Shown: positions 1 through 26,432 of the stretch, piece by piece
How the letters are laid out: each line of letters begins with the position of its first letter
How positions within the stretch are numbered: position 1 is the stretch's first letter
Program-made: the position numbers and the translations under genes
Notes under the pieces: model-generated
Seen by the model: only the letters and a program-made list of their open reading frames with translations
What the model was told of the DNA's origin: nothing
Database searches by the model: none
Origin: a virus
IMG/VR virus record: IMGVR_UViG_3300027840_000009
Location: 1 to 26,432 of that record
DNA length: 26,432 bases
Direction: 5' to 3' (one strand)

Positions 1-274
1 GAAACGGGACGCCGCGAGTGACGCCGCGTGGGACGCCGAGAGTATCGCCGCGAGGGCCGCCGCGAGGGCCGCCGCGTGGGCCGCCGCGAGTGACGCCGCG
101 AGTGACGCCGCGAGTGACGCCGCGTGGGCCGCCGCGAGTGACGCCGCGTGGGACGCCGAGAGTATCGCCGCGTGGGCCGCCGCGAGGGCCGCCGCGAGGG
201 CCGCCGCGAGTGACGCCGCCAACACCATGCTTACTGATATGGTAGAGGCTAAAATTAGGGAGGCGACTAAATGA
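1..274. repeat. left copy of inverted terminal repeat (Ala-rich repeat gene 3' end)
   Basis: The left end of the window matches the reverse complement of the right end (26102-26432). Both begin with AAACGGGACGCCGCGAG near the very tip, run through GC-rich 6-, 9- and 15-nt units such as GCCGCGAGTGAC, and finish with a 54-nt unique tail (221-274 here) that matches the other copy except at two positions. The repeat units themselves differ in number and order. This may be a true inverted terminal repeat or an assembly break inside two paralogous genes. Confidence 0.85.
2..274 (+). CDS. Ala-rich repeat protein, C-terminal fragment (5' end off window)
   Basis: Frame 2 is open from the window edge to TGA at 272-274, giving 90 residues without a start, so the gene is truncated by the contig end. 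It reads as short alanine units with S, R, W and D at fixed places (ASDAA, AWDAE, ARAAA) and then a non-repetitive tail NTMLTDMVEAKIREATK. The same tail is encoded at the other end of the window, which supports this frame over the Pro/Arg-rich frame covering the same bases. The stop overlaps the next start in ATGA, a usual sign of translational coupling. Phage proteins with AWDAARAAA-type repeats are common but I know no established function. The repeat period suggests a long alpha-helix, which is inference. Confidence 0.7.
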   Translation, partial: KRDAASDAAWDAESIAARAAARAAAWAAASDAASDAASDAAWAAASDAAWDAESIAAWAAARAAARAAASDAANTMLTDMVEAKIREATK

Positions 275-3299: not shown

Positions 3300-3518
3300 A
3301 TGGCTAGACCGAAGAAAGAAGAGGGCGCGGAGCCCCCCGAGACTCTTAAGGAGTGCCCCGCGTGCCACGAAGGACAGGGCGAGGCGTCGAAGGACAAGCA
3401 CGGGAATTGGCGGTGTTTCTGTCCCGCGTGCGGCTATTGGGATAGCATGGTCTACCCCACCGAAGACGCGGCAAAGATCGGATGGGAAGCTTGCGGAGGC
3501 CCTGAACAGATTTGGTAA
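3300..3518 (+). CDS. Lar/Com-like zinc-ribbon protein
   Basis: This 72-residue protein has CPAC at residues 20-23 and CPAC at 41-44, with tryptophan, YPTEDAA and W(E)ACGG following. The pattern (CPxC, about 16-18 residues, CxxCG, then Y-TE-A and W) matches the general shape of Lar-type restriction-alleviation proteins and related phage zinc ribbons. AAGGAGTAACT precedes the ATG, and the stop directly abuts the large terminase start. Known Lar proteins reduce type I restriction. That function here is only a possibility, because many zinc ribbons share this pattern. A methyltransferase in the same window would fit a DNA-protection theme. Confidence 0.55.
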   Translation: MARPKKEEGAEPPETLKECPACHEGQGEASKDKHGNWRCFCPACGYWDSMVYPTEDAAKIGWEACGGPEQIW

Positions 3519-4925
3519 ATGATTAAGCTTAATCCTGACCAGAAGCGCGCGCTAGAATTAGTCCAGCAAGGCAAGCGCCATATGCTAATTTATGGCGGCT
3601 CTAGGTCAGGGAAAACCTTTTTGATTGTATACCTCATTGTGTTGCGGGCTCTCAAATATGGGGGCTCGCGGCACCTTATTTACCGTCTACGGCAAAAGGA
3701 CGCTATCGAGTCTATTTGGCTAGAGACCCTGCCAAAAGTATTGTCGGAAATCGGCCTGAATGTATCGCTTTACCAGACAAACGAGACAAGACACGTTATC
3801 ACGTTTAAGAACGGTTCCGAGATTTGGATAGCGGGCGTAGACGACTCCCGAAGCGCTGATAGCGTCCTCGGCAAGGAATATGCGACAATCTACCATAACG
3901 AAGCGTCTCAAATACCGTTTCTAACCGCGTGGAAAGTGCGTACGCGCCTCGCTCAAGCCGTGGCCGGATGCGCCGCGCGGGAGTTCGTAGACCTTAATCC
4001 GACTAGCCGAGGGCATTGGACGTATAAGGAATACGTCGCCCTTGAAGACCCCATAGAGTCAAAGCCGGGGCATATCGTCAAACTGCCGAACCCGCAAGAT
4101 TACGCATATATCCAGATTAACCCCGCTGGCAACGTGCAGAACCTCGACCCGGCGTATATACAAAGTCTAGCCCACGCCCCGGAGCAGATGCGGCGGCGGT
4201 TCTACCTTGGCGAGTATGCCGACGACAATGAATTGACGGTATTCGCTTTCCCGCCCGAAGGATTCTATGGCGGACGTATGTTCGAGGAATGGGTGGCGGC
4301 TGTCGGCCCTGGCAATGTTCGACTCACCGCTGGTCTCGACCTTGGCTTTGAAGACGCTGACGGATTCGCGGTTGTCGCCTATGTGCCACGATTGACCGCC
4401 CCCGAAGGGCCGCGCGATATCATGGAGGCGTTGCGCAAAGGCATTCCCGCCCCGATGCCGAGCAAGGACTTGACCCGCAAACGCTGGCTAATCTACGAGT
4501 ACAAAGCCCGCCGATCCGGCTTAAAGGAACTCGCCGACGCTGTAGGCGCTGGACTAAAGACCGTTGAACGCCGATGCCTAGACCTTGGTATCCCCTACCA
4601 ATGTTCGATCTACAGCGACACTGGCGGCGGCGGGGCCAAGATGGTTTACGATTTGCGCACCCAACACCATTTACCCGTTCGGCCAGCCTACAAGCGGGAC
4701 AAGCTAGCCGCTATCGAGCTTTTGCAAGACGAGGTTAAAGCCGGGTCGTTTGTCGTCCCTGCTGACGGAGCCTTCGCGCAAGAGGCCGAGGCTATTGTCT
4801 GGACTAAAGACCCCGACACGGGCGCGATAGTGCGGACAATTGACGATAAGGTATACCACCCTGACATGATGGACGCCGTACTGTACGCTATGCGGTCGGT
4901 TTGGGTAAATAGTTTAGCCCCTTGA
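3519..4925 (+). CDS. terL: terminase large subunit
   Basis: The 468-residue protein has both enzyme domains of a phage packaging motor. The ATPase part shows Walker A GGSRSGKT (residues 26-33), a Walker B-like strand ending in IYHNEAS (124-130, with the catalytic Glu) and a coupling motif VDLNPTSRGHW (157-167). The RNase H-like nuclease part shows three acidic positions: D273 in AGLDLG, D367 in YSDTGG and D449/D452 in HPDMMDA. It translocates DNA into the prohead through the portal and cuts the concatemer. The length is normal for the family. The ATG abuts the stop of the zinc-ribbon gene without its own strong Shine-Dalgarno, suggesting coupling. Its last codons overlap the promoter at 4922. 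Confidence 0.93.
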   Translation: MIKLNPDQKRALELVQQGKRHMLIYGGSRSGKTFLIVYLIVLRALKYGGSRHLIYRLRQKDAIESIWLETLPKVLSEIGLNVSLYQTNETRHVITFKNGSEIWIAGVDDSRSADSVLGKEYATIYHNEASQIPFLTAWKVRTRLAQAVAGCAAREFVDLNPTSRGHWTYKEYVALEDPIESKPGHIVKLPNPQDYAYIQINPAGNVQNLDPAYIQSLAHAPEQMRRRFYLGEYADDNELTVFAFPPEGFYGGRMFEEWVAAVGPGNVRLTAGLDLGFEDADGFAVVAYVPRLTAPEGPRDIMEALRKGIPAPMPSKDLTRKRWLIYEYKARRSGLKELADAVGAGLKTVERRCLDLGIPYQCSIYSDTGGGGAKMVYDLRTQHHLPVRPAYKRDKLAAIELLQDEVKAGSFVVPADGAFAQEAEAIVWTKDPDTGAIVRTIDDKVYHPDMMDAVLYAMRSVWVNSLAP

Positions 4926-4950
4926 CGCTCTCCTGCTATTGTGCTACATT
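4922..4950 (+). promoter_or_regulatory. promoter for predicted small RNA
   Basis: TTGACG at 4922-4927 and TACATT at 4945-4950 are 17 nt apart, with TGC at 4942-4944 giving an extended -10. The predicted start, about 4957, is exactly the first base of the GAGGGC helix of the downstream RNA. The -35 overlaps the stop codon of the terminase gene. Confidence 0.55.
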
Positions 4951-4956
4951 GCCCCC

Positions 4957-5038
4957 GAGGGCGCCTGTTGCATAAGGCAACGCGAGCGCGGCCCTCTGCC
5001 CCTAGGTGTTGCCTCCGCCTAGGGGCTTTTCTTTTTTT
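4957..5038 (+). ncRNA. predicted phage small RNA with own terminator
   Basis: About 80 nt lie between the promoter and the terminator and contain no open frame. From the predicted start, GAGGGC 4957-4962 pairs with GCCCTC 4991-4996. An inner hairpin GTTGC 4967-4971 / GCAAC 4977-4981 has an ATAAG loop. The terminator hairpin 4998-5026 follows. GGCAAC 4976-4981 can also pair with GTTGCC 5008-5013 in the terminator loop, which would make a pseudoknot or an alternative fold. Known phage small RNAs include packaging RNAs and regulators of host or phage genes; nothing here decides between them. The region could simply be a terminator for the terminase operon. Confidence 0.45.
4998..5038 (+). terminator. 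intrinsic terminator
   Basis: GCCCCTAGG 4998-5006 pairs perfectly with CCTAGGGGC 5018-5026 (9 bp, 11-nt loop), followed by TTTTCTTTTTTT at 5027-5038. It ends the small RNA and any read-through from the terminase gene. Confidence 0.9.
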
Positions 5039-5815: not shown

Positions 5816-5840
5816 GCCCCGACTTCGGTCGGGGCTTTTT
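5816..5840 (+). terminator. intrinsic terminator with UUCG loop
   Basis: GCCCCGAC 5816-5823 and GTCGGGGC 5828-5835 form a perfect 8-bp stem closed by the stable TTCG tetraloop, followed by TTTTTATT. It isolates the operon starting at 5103 from the morphogenesis operon. Confidence 0.95.
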
Positions 5841-5853
5841 ATTATCCCGCCCC

Positions 5854-5904
5854 TTGACAGTGTGTATGCTTTATGATACACCGAATGTATGATTTTAGAT
5901 ACAC
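5854..5904 (+). promoter_or_regulatory. TTGACA box with two operator-like palindromes
   Basis: TTGACA lies at 5854-5859. A -10 at normal distance is weak (GATACA 5875-5880 or TACACC 5877-5882). Two copies of a palindrome follow: GTGTAT-N8-ATACAC at 5862-5881 and ATGTAT-N8-ATACAC at 5885-5904. Even the 8-nt centres are similar (GCTTTATG, GATTTTAG). Centres are 23 bp apart, about two helical turns. The second copy covers the ATG at 5889. Such paired sites usually bind a dimeric regulator cooperatively; the weak -10 would fit control by repressor or activator. Confidence 0.6.
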
Positions 5905-6179
5905 TGAAAGCGGCTATCAAAGGCGCGCGGGAATCTCGGGAGGCCGGTAGGCGCGAGGCTGTCCGCGAGGCGGTGGCCGAGTATCTAGACAAGCTCCCCG
6001 AGCGGCGGGCCAATCGAGCAATTCAGGAAGTGCTTTCGGCCTCGGATATTACCGACGCTTTGCTTCGGCGCTTTGTTGCCTCTTGCCCCCCTGACAAGCA
6101 TATTGAGGTTTCTTTCCCCACTGGCGGGACTATTATCGTTTCCGGTCGCTCCGACGAAAGGAACGGCCCCGGATGGTAA
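5889..6179 (+). CDS. small helical protein heading the morphogenesis operon, possibly leaderless
   Basis: The 96-residue product begins MILDTLKAAIKGARESREAG and is Arg/Glu/Ala-rich and helical up to about residue 60, with a beta-like C-terminus (KHIEVSFPTGGTIIVSG). No Shine-Dalgarno is visible before ATG 5889, and the predicted transcript start falls at about 5887-5889, so translation may be leaderless. The start lies inside the second operator-like palindrome. The 3' end overlaps the portal start by 7 nt. No family was recognised. Its position between terminase and portal could suit a head-assembly or regulatory role, which is speculation. Confidence 0.6.
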   Translation: MILDTLKAAIKGARESREAGRREAVREAVAEYLDKLPERRANRAIQEVLSASDITDALLRRFVASCPPDKHIEVSFPTGGTIIVSGRSDERNGPGW

Positions 6180-7933
6180 AGCCTATCGAAGGGACGTCCG
6201 AAAAGTGGACGGGGCAGGAAGAGGCCGAGCTTAGGGAAAATATCACCAAGCTTTGGGGCTACTCTGCCGCGCGGGAAGCCAAGTACAACCGCAATCTAAA
6301 CCGGTACTATAACAACGGCAAGGGCGATGCCCGGGCCACGATCTGGAACGCTGGCTATCAGTCGCTAGGCTTTAACCGGGCGATGTATGATGACGCCTCG
6401 GTACAGACTAAGCTAAATATCATCAAGTCGGCGACTGATACTATTACTTCGAAGCTGTCCCAAGCCCGCGTTCGTCCTTTTTTTGATGCCGTCCGGGGCG
6501 ACTATAAGACCATCCGCGCCACCCGCGCCGCGCAGGAGTTTTTTGATCAGTTTTTCGACAAACAAAAGATTTACGAGCGCGCGCCCGAAGTCGCCCGATC
6601 TGCTATCCTTTTTGACGGCGGGCACTTTTGGGTAGATGAGGACAATCAGACTATTGAGCCCATTCCGCATTGGTGCCTGTTTGTAGACCCCTACGAGGCT
6701 AACGCCGCGACTCCGCGCGGGCTGACGTATGGCATGATTTATAGACAGCAGTACCCTTTCCGCATGGTCGAGGCGCAGTTTCCCAAAGCCGAAAGCATCG
6801 CTCGCTTTAAGGTCGGCAACACTCGCCACCTTCGCGGGCGGTTTGTGGTTTTCTATGACCTCGACGGCGGCTATAAGTGGTACGTCTACGAGGATGCCAT
6901 CCTCTGGCGCAAAAAGATAGACTATAAGCGCTTGCCGGTTACGTCGCTTTGGTGGAGCCCTCCCGCGATTGGTTGGTCAACCACCTGCCTTGCCGATGAC
7001 CTCTATACTATTCAAGTCCAGATTGACGAAATCCAAATGAGGATAGATCAGGCGCTTCGGCAATCTCCTTTTAATACCATTTTTGTGTCTACTGATTCTG
7101 GTGTTAAGGGTACAATGCTTAGCAATGAAGCCGCGTTGGTTGTCCCGTATATTCCCGGCCCCGAAGGTAGCCCGCCCGTTGTTGCCACCCCCGCGCCCAT
7201 ATCGCCCGAGTATTCGCGCTTGCTTGATAGCTATATCCAAAAAGGCTACGAGCTTGCCGGAATATCTCAATTGTCGGCCCAGGCCAAAAAGCCCGCTGGC
7301 CTGACTTCTGGTGTAGCCTTGCAGACGATGGAAGACGTAGAGAGCGAGCGCCACAATGTAACCGTGCAAGCGTATATCCATCAGTTTGTAGAGCTTGCGG
7401 AAATCGCCGTTGAGGTTTTCCCTGCCGACGCTGATATCCTCCCGCCCGCGATGGGCCGCGCCCGCGTCAAGTGGGCCGACGTTAAAAAGCAAGCCGATCT
7501 ATTCCGCGTGCAGTTTAGCGCCGGTTCCGCGCTGGCTAAAGACCCCGCGACGAAGGTACAGCAGATTCAGCAACTTCAAGCGCTCGGCATTAACTTACAG
7601 CCGATACTCCCGCAACTCCTTGAGATCCCCGATCTTGAAACGGCGTATTCAGCGACTACGGCTAGTTATGACTATATCCAGTCGGTTATAGAAAAAGCCG
7701 CTGAAGACGGAACGGTCGATTTTATCCCTATTGTTAATATGGAAATGCTCTTTAGCGAAACTGTCCGTTGGATGCTTCGCCTTTCTGCTGACGAGTCTAA
7801 CAAAAAGTATATCGACAATCTTAAAAAGTTGCTTGATAGAATCATGGAGGAACAGGCGGCCTCCGCACCCCCGCCCGAGCCGGTGCCTCCCGCGCCGGTT
7901 GAGACTATGCCGCCGCAAGGAGGGATTATCTAA
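6173..7933 (+). CDS. portal protein
   Basis: The 586-residue product is assigned as portal protein, which forms the dodecameric ring through which DNA enters and leaves the head. Support comes from its size and its place between terminase and scaffold/capsid genes. The internal sequence also fits: an N-terminal helical region with YNRNLNRYYNNGKGD, the segment NIIKSATDTITSKLSQARVRPFFD (often seen as 'N-x-x-K-x-x-I-D-T-x-x-S-K-x-x-x-x-R-P' in podovirus portals), an acidic stretch HFWVDEDNQTIEPIP, and a helical C-terminal half with GLTSGVALQTMEDVESERH. The tail is Pro-rich. AAAGGAACG precedes the ATG, and the stop overlaps the next ATG in TAATG. Confidence 0.88.
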   Translation: MVKPIEGTSEKWTGQEEAELRENITKLWGYSAAREAKYNRNLNRYYNNGKGDARATIWNAGYQSLGFNRAMYDDASVQTKLNIIKSATDTITSKLSQARVRPFFDAVRGDYKTIRATRAAQEFFDQFFDKQKIYERAPEVARSAILFDGGHFWVDEDNQTIEPIPHWCLFVDPYEANAATPRGLTYGMIYRQQYPFRMVEAQFPKAESIARFKVGNTRHLRGRFVVFYDLDGGYKWYVYEDAILWRKKIDYKRLPVTSLWWSPPAIGWSTTCLADDLYTIQVQIDEIQMRIDQALRQSPFNTIFVSTDSGVKGTMLSNEAALVVPYIPGPEGSPPVVATPAPISPEYSRLLDSYIQKGYELAGISQLSAQAKKPAGLTSGVALQTMEDVESERHNVTVQAYIHQFVELAEIAVEVFPADADILPPAMGRARVKWADVKKQADLFRVQFSAGSALAKDPATKVQQIQQLQALGINLQPILPQLLEIPDLETAYSATTASYDYIQSVIEKAAEDGTVDFIPIVNMEMLFSETVRWMLRLSADESNKKYIDNLKKLLDRIMEEQAASAPPPEPVPPAPVETMPPQGGII

Positions 7934-8517
7934 TGGAGGATAGGCTTAACGCTATCGAAAACGCTATCCTCGAACTGGCCGACGCTATGCGCGCGATCTG
8001 TGAAAAAATGGCCGCTATGGACGAAGAGGTAGACAAGCTCGCCAAGGGTAAGATTTACGACAGGCTCGAAGGAGTCGAAAGCGAAATCAATTCAATGGTG
8101 GGCGGGTTTAACGGACTCTTGTCCAAGCGGCGCGGAGATCGCTACAAGTCCATGATTGGCGCCAATGAGGCGCTTATGGGCTATGCTCCTAAGTATAAGA
8201 AGGTTTTCCAGCGCGACATTACGGAAGACCTCCTGAACGAAATTATGAAGTACATGGAGCAGGACGGCGCAAGCGAGGAACAGCTTCCCGCCATTTTCGA
8301 TTCGGTCTTGTCCGATCTCCGGGCGAGATTTGAAGAGGAACAGGCGGAAGGCGAAGGCGTGGGGCATGAGGCTATGGAGTCTCCCGAAATGGAGAAGGCC
8401 GAGCATGAAGCCCCCGCTGGTACGGCTATCGAGGTAGAAATTGAGAAGAAGCCCATCGACCCCGATGAGGCTCTTAAAAACATGGCGCGGCGCTTTAAGG
8501 GCGCTCGCGTAGGCTAA
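7933..8517 (+). CDS. scaffold-like head assembly protein
   Basis: The 194-residue product lies between portal and capsid genes, the usual scaffold position. It is acidic and mainly helical, with heptad-like patterns at residues 1-60 (AILELADAMRAICEKM) and 90-135, a very acidic linker around 135-170 and a basic end (LKNMARRFKGARVG). Scaffolds commonly use a basic C-terminal helix to bind coat protein and leave the head after assembly. There is no protease motif. Start ATG overlaps the portal stop. The role is inferred from position and composition. Confidence 0.65.
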   Translation: MEDRLNAIENAILELADAMRAICEKMAAMDEEVDKLAKGKIYDRLEGVESEINSMVGGFNGLLSKRRGDRYKSMIGANEALMGYAPKYKKVFQRDITEDLLNEIMKYMEQDGASEEQLPAIFDSVLSDLRARFEEEQAEGEGVGHEAMESPEMEKAEHEAPAGTAIEVEIEKKPIDPDEALKNMARRFKGARVG

Positions 8518-8534: not shown

Positions 8535-9947
8535 ATGGCTCTTGGTGATGTGACGCCCGGATTTAGCTCCGCGAGCGTGCTTTCTATCCTTAAGGAGAGT
8601 TATGCGGAAAAGGAGGTGCAGAACCTTCTCGAACGCAATAGCCCGACTCTTGCAAAGATCAAGAAGGTTCCCGGCTACGGTAAGTATTATGTCATTCCGA
8701 TGCTGTACTCCCGTGGCGGCGGCGTAGCGGGCGACTTTACCGCGCTGACTGCTACTAGTGCGGCGTCTAACGCGTCGGCTAAGGTTCCTTACGGCCAGTG
8801 TTTCAGCCGGTTTGACATTTCGCCGAAGGAGCATCTCGCTTCCGATAACTCTTTCGACAATGGCGCTTTTATCCAGTTCCTCCGCGAGTATTTCTTCGCT
8901 TCTAACGAGGCGCTTAGGAAGACCATCGCGGGCGCTATTTTCGGCATGGGTTATTGTGAGGTTGCGCCTCTTTCCGCTATCGATGCCGGTGCCCAGCTTT
9001 TCGTGACTGTTCCTAGCCACGCGGCTATGATGATCGACATTGGCAGTAAGGTGCAGTTTAGCACCGGCCCGACCCCTGGTGGCGCGTATCGTGCTGGCGG
9101 CCCCGTGGTTGTCTCCAAGATTAACGACAACGGCAACGACACCGTGACGGTTACTTTTGCTTCTGCCTATGGCGCGACTGTTGCGGTAGGCGACTGGATG
9201 GAGCTTGCGGGCTTCCGCGATGGATCCTCTAAGCCCCTCATGTTTGTTGGCCTCCGTGGCTGGCTCCCGACCATCGGCAATCGTACTGGCGGCACTTGGA
9301 CGAGCTATATCGGTACCGACTTCTTCGGCCTTAACCGCTCGCTTCACACTACGCGCCTCGCGGGTCAGTTCTACCTCCGCAACGCTGGCGCCAGTGAAAA
9401 GTATGCCGATGCCGTGGTCAAGGGCGTTCGCTATGCTCGCCGTGGCGGCGGTGTGCCGGACATGATTGTCCTTAATGACGTTGACTTCGGCACTATCGTT
9501 AGCGAGATTAAGGCGGCCACTAGCTACTTCCAGAAGATCAATGGCCCCGAGAACGGCGGCGAGCTTAAGGCTGTCAACGGAATTACGTCCCTGATGTTTG
9601 CCTTTAGCAATACGTGGATTAACTACGTCGTGGACGATCCCTATTGCCCCGTCGGTATTGGTTATATCCTTGAGACTGATTCTATTGGCCTTGCGATGCT
9701 CTCTAACCGCAAGCCCGTGGAGACCAACCTTCCCTCTACTAACGAAGGCGGCACGCCTCCCATTAGCTCCCAGGATATGCCCCCGATGGAGTACCGCTGG
9801 AACATTGACGACCTTATCGCCACCGCTCCCTCGGACACGGTTGACGGCCAGGGCGCGCGCGTGACGACCCAGTTCTACGGCGCTTTCTTTGTTCGCAATC
9901 CGGCCCATTGTTGCGTGGTTAAGTTCGACAATTCCCTCGCGGCCTAG
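8535..9947 (+). CDS. major capsid protein
   Basis: The 470-residue product follows the scaffold gene and has a strong CTAGGAGG site. It shows features of HK97-fold coat proteins of podoviruses: an N-terminal region with VQNLLERNSPTLAKIKKVPG, then YVIPMLYSRGGGVAGDFTAL (the 'Y-V-I-P-x-x-x-x-R-G-G-G' block), an E-loop-like segment before residue 130, and a long helix (FLREYFFASNEALRKTIAG). The middle part contains a beta insertion-like region (KVQFSTGPTP to VAVGDWMELAGF). It builds the icosahedral head. It probably needs high expression, and a hairpin follows the gene. A 464-codon antisense frame across it is a composition artefact. Confidence 0.88.
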   Translation: MALGDVTPGFSSASVLSILKESYAEKEVQNLLERNSPTLAKIKKVPGYGKYYVIPMLYSRGGGVAGDFTALTATSAASNASAKVPYGQCFSRFDISPKEHLASDNSFDNGAFIQFLREYFFASNEALRKTIAGAIFGMGYCEVAPLSAIDAGAQLFVTVPSHAAMMIDIGSKVQFSTGPTPGGAYRAGGPVVVSKINDNGNDTVTVTFASAYGATVAVGDWMELAGFRDGSSKPLMFVGLRGWLPTIGNRTGGTWTSYIGTDFFGLNRSLHTTRLAGQFYLRNAGASEKYADAVVKGVRYARRGGGVPDMIVLNDVDFGTIVSEIKAATSYFQKINGPENGGELKAVNGITSLMFAFSNTWINYVVDDPYCPVGIGYILETDSIGLAMLSNRKPVETNLPSTNEGGTPPISSQDMPPMEYRWNIDDLIATAPSDTVDGQGARVTTQFYGAFFVRNPAHCCVVKFDNSLAA

Positions 9948-10042: not shown

Positions 10043-10678
10043 ATGCTTGTCTCCGATATAATCACCGCCGCTAGACAGTACACGCAAATATCCGGTTCGC
10101 AATTCTTTAACGCGACCGACGAGCTTAGAGCCGTCAATCGTGCGTATCGAGATATTTACGAGCGTATTTGCAATGCTAATGATGACTACTTTTTAACCGA
10201 GCTTATTATAGACCCCGCCACGTTTACGGACGTTCGCGAGGGCGTGCATGATTATACTCTTCCCGCTGACTTTTACCGCTTGCGCAATCTTGTGGGCGTT
10301 ACCGGTTCTGGTGATGTTCAGTTTGCGCGTAAAGACGTTCAAGATATATACCTTGGCGAAGGCTACAGGTTCTACGGCCAAAAGCTTAGGGTTTTCTATA
10401 CTTCCGGCTATTCTTCTTTTAGGCTCGAATACTACCCCGAGCCGGTTGAGTTTACCTCTACCGCGACAGCTATTACTTATCCTCCGCAACTTGAGCCGCT
10501 TATTATCGCGTATCAGCTTGCAATGGATATTGCCAAAATGCAAAACGCCGATGCTGCAAAGCACGCGGAAGAGTATGCGCGTCTTTGGAAACGTTTTGAG
10601 ATTGCTATAACTAACAAAGATAATTTGCGATACGTCAAGGTTGCCAACAAATACCGTTCCACTTTCCCGGGGTATTAA
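10043..10678 (+). CDS. head-tail connector (adaptor) protein
   Basis: The 211-residue product follows the capsid gene and resembles podovirus adaptor proteins (P22 gp4 / T7 gp11-like position and shape). Typical features are an N-terminal helix LVSDIITAARQYTQ, then FNATDELRAVNRAYRDIYE, a central beta part with VHDYTLPADFYRLRNLVGV, and a C-terminal helical segment (IIAYQLAMDIAKMQNADAA...YARLWKRFE) that would lie against the portal. It closes the packed head and receives the tail. GGGGGC lies 4-5 nt before the ATG, and the stop abuts the next ATG. The role is inferred from position and pattern. Confidence 0.75.
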   Translation: MLVSDIITAARQYTQISGSQFFNATDELRAVNRAYRDIYERICNANDDYFLTELIIDPATFTDVREGVHDYTLPADFYRLRNLVGVTGSGDVQFARKDVQDIYLGEGYRFYGQKLRVFYTSGYSSFRLEYYPEPVEFTSTATAITYPPQLEPLIIAYQLAMDIAKMQNADAAKHAEEYARLWKRFEIAITNKDNLRYVKVANKYRSTFPGY

Positions 10679-13407: not shown

Positions 13408-14475
13408 ATGCCTAGCAATTCCGACCGCGCAAGGGCGGCGCAAAAAGAGCCGAAGAAAGAAGTTATAGAAGCGCAGAGGCCGACTTATCGGGAGGGGCGC
13501 GATGAGCTTGCCGCAAAAGATCAGGGAAGCGCCGCTAAAAATCGAGCCTTTGTAAAAGCGGAGCAAGAGCGAATAGATGCTACTGCAAAAGCTCCTGGTG
13601 GTGGCAATCGGACGGTAGCCGAAGCGAGGGCCGCGGATAGAGCAGAAGCCGCAAGCGCTCGTGAACCTAGAGAGCGCCCCGAGCGTCAAGAGCAAGCCGC
13701 GCCCGCGCCCGCCACTGCGCCCGTGGCCCCCGCCGCTCCGACCGGCCCTAACGCCGCGACGTATGGCGCTGGCTATGATGCCGACACCGCCGCCGCAATG
13801 CAGGGAGGCCCCGCCGCGACGATGGCTAGGGCTAATGAGGCGGCGCGTGAACAAGCCAAGATGCAAGCAGACCTTGCTACTCGCAACGCGATCCAAGCTG
13901 GCCGATCCGCTGGCATGATGCCGGGGCAAGCCGCTCTCGGGGCGCAGACGCAAGCCGCTAATGCTTATGGTGTTGGCATGGGCCAGGGTCAACAGCAGTT
14001 TGCCGGTTATACCCAGCTTGGCGGTCAGTTAGGCGCGGAAATGGCGCAACGTGGATTGACTGAAAAAAGCATTGACGTACAGAAGTATTCAGCCGAGCAA
14101 CAGGCCAAGGCGGCGCAACGTCAGGCTAATCAGGGACTGTTGAGTAGCTTGTTTGGCGCGTTTGGTGGCATTGCGTCGCTGTTTTCGGATCGTCGGTTGA
14201 AGGAAGACACCGTACCGGCGCGCATAGCATCGAGCCTTGACAAAATTAATAGTTACACTTATAAGTATAAAGGTAATTCCCGTCCCGAGGCTGGCGTAAT
14301 GGCGCAAGACCTCGAAAAAACCGCTATGGCTCCCGCCGTTATCGACACCCCGCAAGGCAAAGCCGTTGACACTAATCGCCTTTCGACGATGAACACCGCC
14401 GCTCTTTCCGAGCACGAAAAAAGACTCAAAGACATAGAACGCATGATTAGAGATATGGGGGGTATCAATGCCTAA
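13408..14475 (+). CDS. virion protein with C-terminal S74 intramolecular chaperone domain
   Basis: The 355-residue protein has an Ala/Arg/Gln-rich, largely disordered or helical N-terminal two-thirds and a C-terminal peptidase S74 (endosialidase chaperone) domain starting near residue 257. The catalytic pair of that family, Ser and Lys five residues apart in SDRRLK, is present as S260 and K265. The usual followers also occur (INSYTYKYKG, AGVMAQDLEK, and a final coiled coil EHEKRLKDIERMIRDMGG). S74 domains help trimers fold and then cut themselves off. Here there is no beta-helix fibre before it, which is unusual; the protein may be a fibre-like or ejection-related virion part. AGGAGG precedes the ATG. 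Confidence 0.8.
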   Translation: MPSNSDRARAAQKEPKKEVIEAQRPTYREGRDELAAKDQGSAAKNRAFVKAEQERIDATAKAPGGGNRTVAEARAADRAEAASAREPRERPERQEQAAPAPATAPVAPAAPTGPNAATYGAGYDADTAAAMQGGPAATMARANEAAREQAKMQADLATRNAIQAGRSAGMMPGQAALGAQTQAANAYGVGMGQGQQQFAGYTQLGGQLGAEMAQRGLTEKSIDVQKYSAEQQAKAAQRQANQGLLSSLFGAFGGIASLFSDRRLKEDTVPARIASSLDKINSYTYKYKGNSRPEAGVMAQDLEKTAMAPAVIDTPQGKAVDTNRLSTMNTAALSEHEKRLKDIERMIRDMGGINA

Positions 14476-25905: not shown

Positions 25906-26105
25906 TACCAATACCTGTTTCTCGCCAAATACGAAAGCCGCTTTCGCTCTGCCACGGCATTAACAAGCTCGGTGCCGTCCTCGTCTATCGGCGCGTGTCG
26001 GATAATCCGGCGCGTGTCTCGCTTGATGCGGCGCTCGCGCGTGTTGCAGTTTTTGTTGCCGTCGTCCATGTAGATCGCGGGCGCGTGAACATAGGTTCTG
26101 CTCAT
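25905..26105 (-). CDS. small basic hypothetical protein
   Basis: The 66-residue product starts in ATGA with the Ala-rich repeat gene stop, with AGGGAGG upstream. It is strongly basic (NTRERRIKRDTRRIIRHAP and a second cluster in AERKRLSYLARNRYW) and could bind nucleic acid. Its stop shares one base with the methyltransferase ATG (TAATG), so it is coupled to it and may be a partner or simply a small phage gene. It takes the place that the Cys-rich membrane protein has beside the left copy of the repeat gene. Confidence 0.6.
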   Translation of the reverse strand: MSRTYVHAPAIYMDDGNKNCNTRERRIKRDTRRIIRHAPIDEDGTELVNAVAERKRLSYLARNRYW

Positions 26106-26431
26106 CTAGTCGCCTCCCTAATTTTAGCCTCTACCATATCCGTAAGCATGGTGTTTGCGGCGGCACTCGCGGCGGCCCACGCGGCGGCACTCGCGGCGTC
26201 CCTCGCGGCGTCCCTCGCGGCCCTCGCGGCGTCACTCGCGGCGTCACTCGCGGCCCTCGCGGCGGCACTCGCGGCGTCACTCGCGGCCCTCGCGGCGGCA
26301 CTCGCGGCGTCACTCGCGGCACTCGCGGCGTCACTCGCGGCGTCACTCGCGGCACTCGCGGCGTCACTCGCGGCGTCCCACGCGGCGTCACTCGCGGCGG
26401 CCCACGCGGCGTCCCTCGCGGCGTCCCGTTT
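26102..26431 (-). CDS. Ala-rich repeat protein, C-terminal fragment (5' end off window)
   Basis: The leftward frame is open from the right window edge to TGA (26102-26104), giving 109 residues without a start. It consists of short units such as ASDAA, ARDAA, AWDAA and ASAAA, then the tail NTMLTDMVEAKIREATR. The tail is the same as in the left copy except the last residue (R for K), so the frame is well supported. Compared with the left copy, the unit order differs and the D-A-E-S-I variant is missing. The stop overlaps the next ATG as at the left end. Function unknown. Confidence 0.7.
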   Translation of the reverse strand, partial: KRDAARDAAWAAASDAAWDAASDAASAASDAASDAASAASDAASAAARAASDAASAAARAASDAASDAARAARDAARDAASAAAWAAASAAANTMLTDMVEAKIREATR

Positions 26432-26432
26432 T
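26102..26432. repeat. right copy of inverted terminal repeat
   Basis: Reverse-complement partner of 1-274. The 54-nt tail 26102-26155 matches 221-274 at 52 positions. Beyond it the two copies share repeat vocabulary but not an exact order. The outermost bases (AAAACGGGAC on the - strand) agree with GAAACGGGAC at the left tip. Confidence 0.85.

Follow-up and report, generated by a model that had tools for sequence, protein, structure and literature searches.

The operators of phage lambda follow one another at a spacing of 23-24 bp, and the sites of the Ogr protein are centred near position -55 of promoters without a -35 element. The late promoters of the P2 Ogr/Delta system share the consensus TGT-N12-ACA and are Ogr-dependent (PMC3931495), and leaderless phage repressor mRNAs with an adjoining operator have been described for cI and cro of PY54 (PMC4488713). 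Here we describe a locus that recalls each of these systems, found in a window (the whole stretch of DNA that was analyzed) which spans one entire 26,432-bp virus record of IMG/VR. Nucleotide and protein searches against named phages returned no match. Very little has been described of late-gene control in spirochaete phages, and nothing in the uncultured ones studied here; we found no report on the regulation of this group in the part of the literature that we searched.

Twin palindromes at the start of the morphogenesis operon

The first-pass annotation had noticed RTGTAT-N8-ATACAC twice over the beginning of the operon running from portal to fibre genes. We confirmed the twin palindromes, as exact matches lie at 5862-5881 and 5885-5904 with their centres 23 bp apart, 5 of the 8 bases are common to both 8-bp spacers, and the second site spans the ATG at 5889 (Table 1). 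With up to 2 mismatches allowed, the motif has 8 matches in the window versus 1.56 expected, a number reached by none of 100 shuffled sequences. The looser form TGTMT-N8-AKACA occurs in the whole phage record at these two places only (2 sites versus 0.03 expected; 0 of 100 shuffles reached 2). No site was found at early promoters, the window's only two strong sites both being located here, in a record that may nonetheless lack part of the genome. The duplicated regulator site that had been proposed is thereby supported.

Table 1. Features of the operon start, and operator copies beyond the portal gene in Treponema-type phages
Feature	Position	Strand	Remarks
Intrinsic terminator	5816..5843	+	8-pair GC stem, then T run; shields the operon from genes upstream
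-35 element TTGACA	5854..5859	+	6/6 match
Operator 1, GTGTAT-N8-ATACAC, GTGTATGCTTTATGATACAC	5862..5881	.	in -35/-10 spacer and over -10; window's top PWM match
Extended -10, TGa-TACACC	5874..5882	+	weak hexamer (3/6) at 5877-5882, TG extension, N17 from -35
Operator 2, ATGTAT-N8-ATACAC, ATGTATGATTTTAGATACAC	5885..5904	.	over predicted +1 and start codon; window's second PWM match
Morphogenesis operon gene 1	5889..6179	+	96 aa with GPGW at the C terminus; start at 5889 predicted to be leaderless
Portal protein	6173..7933	+	named from gene order and size; ~70% identity to relatives
Scaffold-like protein	7933..8517	+	named from its place after portal and before the probable major capsid protein
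Probable major capsid protein	8535..9947	+	named from position and size; 70-80% identity to relatives
Head-tail adaptor (SU10_adaptor, PF24175)	10043..10678	+	E 6e-14
Tail fibre / S74 chaperone-type protein	13408..14475	+	PF13884 E 1e-8; PHROG virion/tail-fibre matches
Post-portal operator copies	L076 7813, L034 3118, L037 4148, L042 6835, L050 6681, L045 2464

The 96-aa gene, which overlaps the portal gene, has homologues in 7 close and 2 less close relatives. PHROG and Pfam searches gave no match for the portal protein.

We also looked at the remainder of the window. A tRNA-Gln gene (TTG anticodon) is located at 846-917, and the Rfam scan of the window returned tRNA only. A small Lar-like zinc-ribbon protein, conserved in five genomes, is encoded at 3300-3518 directly 5' of the large terminase gene. 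After the terminase gene, the stretch 4922-5030 contains a promoter-like TTGACG-N17-TACATT followed by a highly structured 76-nt segment (-42.7 kcal/mol, z -4.0; no Rfam match) with a terminator at its end, which is possibly a small RNA; the same gap of the relative L007 also contains a promoter-like element and a terminator. The ends of the window (1-270 and 26090-26432) contain GC-rich repeats, mutually inverted, which in another frame read as alanine-rich repeat proteins (ASDAAWDA...) open at the record ends. The record may have ended inside a repeat; the MTPRG... ORFs listed there look like frame artefacts.

Conservation of the operator in related phages

The window was compared with a close set of seven relatives, whose portal proteins are 53-73% identical to that of the window, and with a large distant set (portal 31-43%) found in part in Treponema MAGs. 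The close relatives include the uncultured contigs L003-L007, with capsid proteins 70-80% identical, L024 (portal 53%) and L070, located in a bacterial MAG (portal 66%). Concerning the persistence of the palindromes in related phages, results showed that the motif is conserved while its exact position and outer bases vary. As the exact 12-base motif was missing from the close relatives, we used a looser, independently trained motif. A dyad search in seven close promoters, covering all 256 four-base arms with 15 spacer lengths, returned GTAT-N8-ATAC as the top dyad, with 6 sites in 4 genomes (0 of 200 shuffled sets reached 4 genomes). An independent matrix was then built from 7 sites, all from distant Treponema-type loci (portal 31-36%), and run genome-wide on both strands. 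It ranked the promoter first in the window (G000, 26 kb) and also in G001 (31 kb), G004 (19 kb), G005 (4 kb) and L070 (8 kb), second in G002 (32 kb), and seventh in G003, where a half-site matrix derived from the window placed it first. The chance that a region of ~130 bp holds the top match of a 26-kb genome is about 0.5%. Outside the -35 and -10 elements these promoters are 22-35% identical, like unrelated DNA (with the exception of G003/G005, 64%), so that the shared site is not a matter of recent common descent.

The pairing is conserved as well. Using the distant-site matrix, 23 bp was the best of 30 spacings (16 to 45), a result that 0 of 300 shuffled sets reached and that persisted when the window was removed or when only upstream DNA was considered; the exceptions are G002, which fits 24 bp, and G005, which fits 32 bp. 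The intermediate relative L114/L025 (portal 42%) has two exact sites with a spacing of 20 bp over TTGTAT-N17-TATACT, immediately 5' of the first gene of its operon. The sites lie at -27 and -4 from the ATG in the window and mostly between -71 and -25 in relatives; G006 has no site, and the exact site is absent from most other distant loci.

Treponema-type phages carry [CG]TGT[AC]TAAAAAA[TG][CT]ATACAC upstream of the small gene before portal, and in L076 the sequence at that place is once exactly GTGTAT-N8-ATACAC. These are single sites beside promoters without a clear -35 element. In addition, a second copy of the operator is found in this group just past the portal stop codon and before the scaffold/capsid genes (Table 1). 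In the distant phage G028 (L093/L094), 32.6 kb contain seven TGTMT-N8-AKACA sites, several of them intragenic, with none in the reversed control, an arrangement that recalls dispersed repressor sites.

Promoter and start of the first gene

Both palindromes lie on a sigma70-like promoter composed of TTGACA, a 17-nt spacer and TGa-TACACC. That the sites cover the promoter and the beginning of the operon from portal to fibre is thus supported. The TTGACA at 5854 begins the interval marked in the first-pass annotation, which was silent on it. Considering this element and the N17 spacing, +1 would fall on 5889, which is also the first possible start codon since a TGA at 5874 closes the frame upstream. 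The gene was said to be devoid of a Shine-Dalgarno sequence, and indeed its anti-Shine-Dalgarno duplex energy of +0.1 kcal/mol is the weakest pairing among the 34 genes of the window that were tested, the other 33 having a median of -9.8.

The distance from TTGACA to the start codon is 35 or 36 nt in 8 of 8 close genomes (the window and its seven relatives), and the -10 element, which in the relatives reads TATACT, TATACC, TATATC, TATATG or GATTAT, ends 6-8 nt before the start codon. As the N-terminal protein sequence of the first gene is not conserved among these genomes, the fixed spacing must belong to the promoter; and because it is fixed though the flanking DNA is otherwise ~25% identical, the leaderless mRNA looks conserved. 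The distant relatives possess an ordinary leader with a Shine-Dalgarno sequence, and leaderlessness would therefore be confined to the close clade. In agreement with the earlier suggestion, the missing Shine-Dalgarno sequence and the conserved promoter spacing lead us to infer that the first gene is transcribed without a leader. A gene of L066 (G003), around 3283, with relatives resembling terminase small subunits, also looks leaderless, with TTGACA-N17-TATGTT-N6-ATG and TGTATAAAAAC in the spacer.

Sign of regulation and the protein that reads the sites

We consider it reasonably probable that the palindromes are operators of the late operon, most likely bound by a dimeric repressor that keeps a strong promoter silent, with a leaderless first gene. 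A dimeric DNA-binding protein would recognize TGT[AC]T-N8-A[GT]ACA, two dimers sitting 23 bp apart in this phage, the first covering the spacer and -10 of a host-type sigma70 promoter and the second its transcription start, presumably in a cooperative manner. Bound dimers would most likely obstruct RNA polymerase up to a late stage of infection, the operon being putatively a late one. Upon release of the protein, transcription would start at or within 1 nt of the ATG at 5889, and the first gene would be translated from a leaderless mRNA while the rest of the operon would use ordinary Shine-Dalgarno sites. Judging from the sequence, repression seems preferable to activation because the TTGACA is perfect in 8 of 8 genomes and the sites overlap -35, -10 or +1. 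The weak -10 hexamer of the window (TACACC) speaks against the model. The variable positions of the sites, the single sites without clear -35 in Treponema-type phages and the post-portal copies suggest that no single repression geometry applies to all.

Several candidates for the protein itself were considered. The first-pass annotation had put forward the HTH-repeat protein (24830-23862), which was discarded as a conserved regulator since six relatives, five of them operator-bearing, lack a homologue. The 96-aa product was rejected as an autoregulator, its predicted structure consisting of helices and a beta hairpin (mean pLDDT 70, low confidence) with no fold match, and so was the divergent gene of Treponema-type phages, which encodes signal-peptide-type proteins. 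Pfam and PHROG scans covering part of the ORFs found no XRE-type repressor, and no Ogr/Delta homologue was found among the candidates scanned (likewise part of the ORFs).

The close and the Treponema-type groups both carry the operator yet share, at BLAST level, no non-structural gene family, so the regulator either diverged beyond recognition or is encoded by the host. A host-encoded protein reading the operator, which would fit repression or activation alike and would tie virion production to the state of the host, is in our opinion a doubtful possibility. A phage protein diverged below the reach of BLAST would equally explain the absent common family, and four Treponema genomes contained 7 sites versus 3 in the control, one of the 7 being the phage itself. 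As the sites were few and nearly all intragenic, a host regulon was rejected for these genomes.

A late-transcription activator acting at these sites, as the zinc-finger proteins Ogr/Delta do in P2, is in our view unlikely. The two palindromes of the window are exact matches to TGT-N12-ACA, strong sites occur only in the late module and the Treponema-type promoters have no clear -35; but the window sites are centred at about -18 and +6 on a promoter with a perfect TTGACA, far from the usual Ogr position. Moreover, the sole conserved zinc-ribbon protein that we found (3300-3518) is Lar-like and was rejected as an Ogr.

RNA hairpins hiding the start codon, or acting as processing sites or terminators, are a quite improbable explanation of the repeats. 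The window sites can fold (-4.9 and -2.8 kcal/mol), the AUG is within site 2 and T6 comes directly after one distant site (G028 18204); on the contrary, operator 1 would lie 5' of the transcript, many sites do not fold, and at the A/C position, the fifth pair, left and right halves vary independently of each other, 15 of 32 sites being pairable and 17, more than half, mismatched. These independent changes point to a protein dimer on DNA, and the RNA hairpin was rejected on the mismatch pattern and the folding. Finally, a chance product of AT-rich promoter DNA with TATAC-like repeats is extremely improbable, for even if some relatives have right half-sites to which the -10 elements TATACT and TATACC contribute, every shuffle test contradicts it, as does the matrix trained on independent sites.

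We tentatively suggest that the deeply conserved TGTMT-N8-AKACA could represent an undescribed late-gene control system of a phage lineage with Treponema phages among its members. A dimeric and possibly host-encoded regulator would read the site, and in one clade the system would be combined with an obligatory leaderless first gene. The site offers a testable entry point, consisting of a 50-bp probe and the promoter.

We claim no membership of a named family for this locus. Like the P2 Ogr/Delta late promoters, the locus combines the TGT-N12-ACA geometry with a late operon, but its sites lie over -35, -10 and +1 instead of -55 and its -35 is perfect. It shares with the leaderless repressor mRNAs of lambda cI and of PY54 cI and cro a strong promoter placed for a start at the AUG and an adjoining operator; here, however, the gene concerned is the first of a structural operon and not a repressor gene, which makes the conserved leaderless start unusual, since the leaderless phage mRNAs that we found in the literature are repressor mRNAs. 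With OR and OL of lambda, bound by CI and Cro, it has in common palindromic dimer sites of ~17-20 bp repeated at 23-24 bp over a sigma70 promoter, although the window sites occur only at the late structural operon, neither at early promoters nor beside a repressor gene. By analogy, the element would work like a tandem-operator switch.
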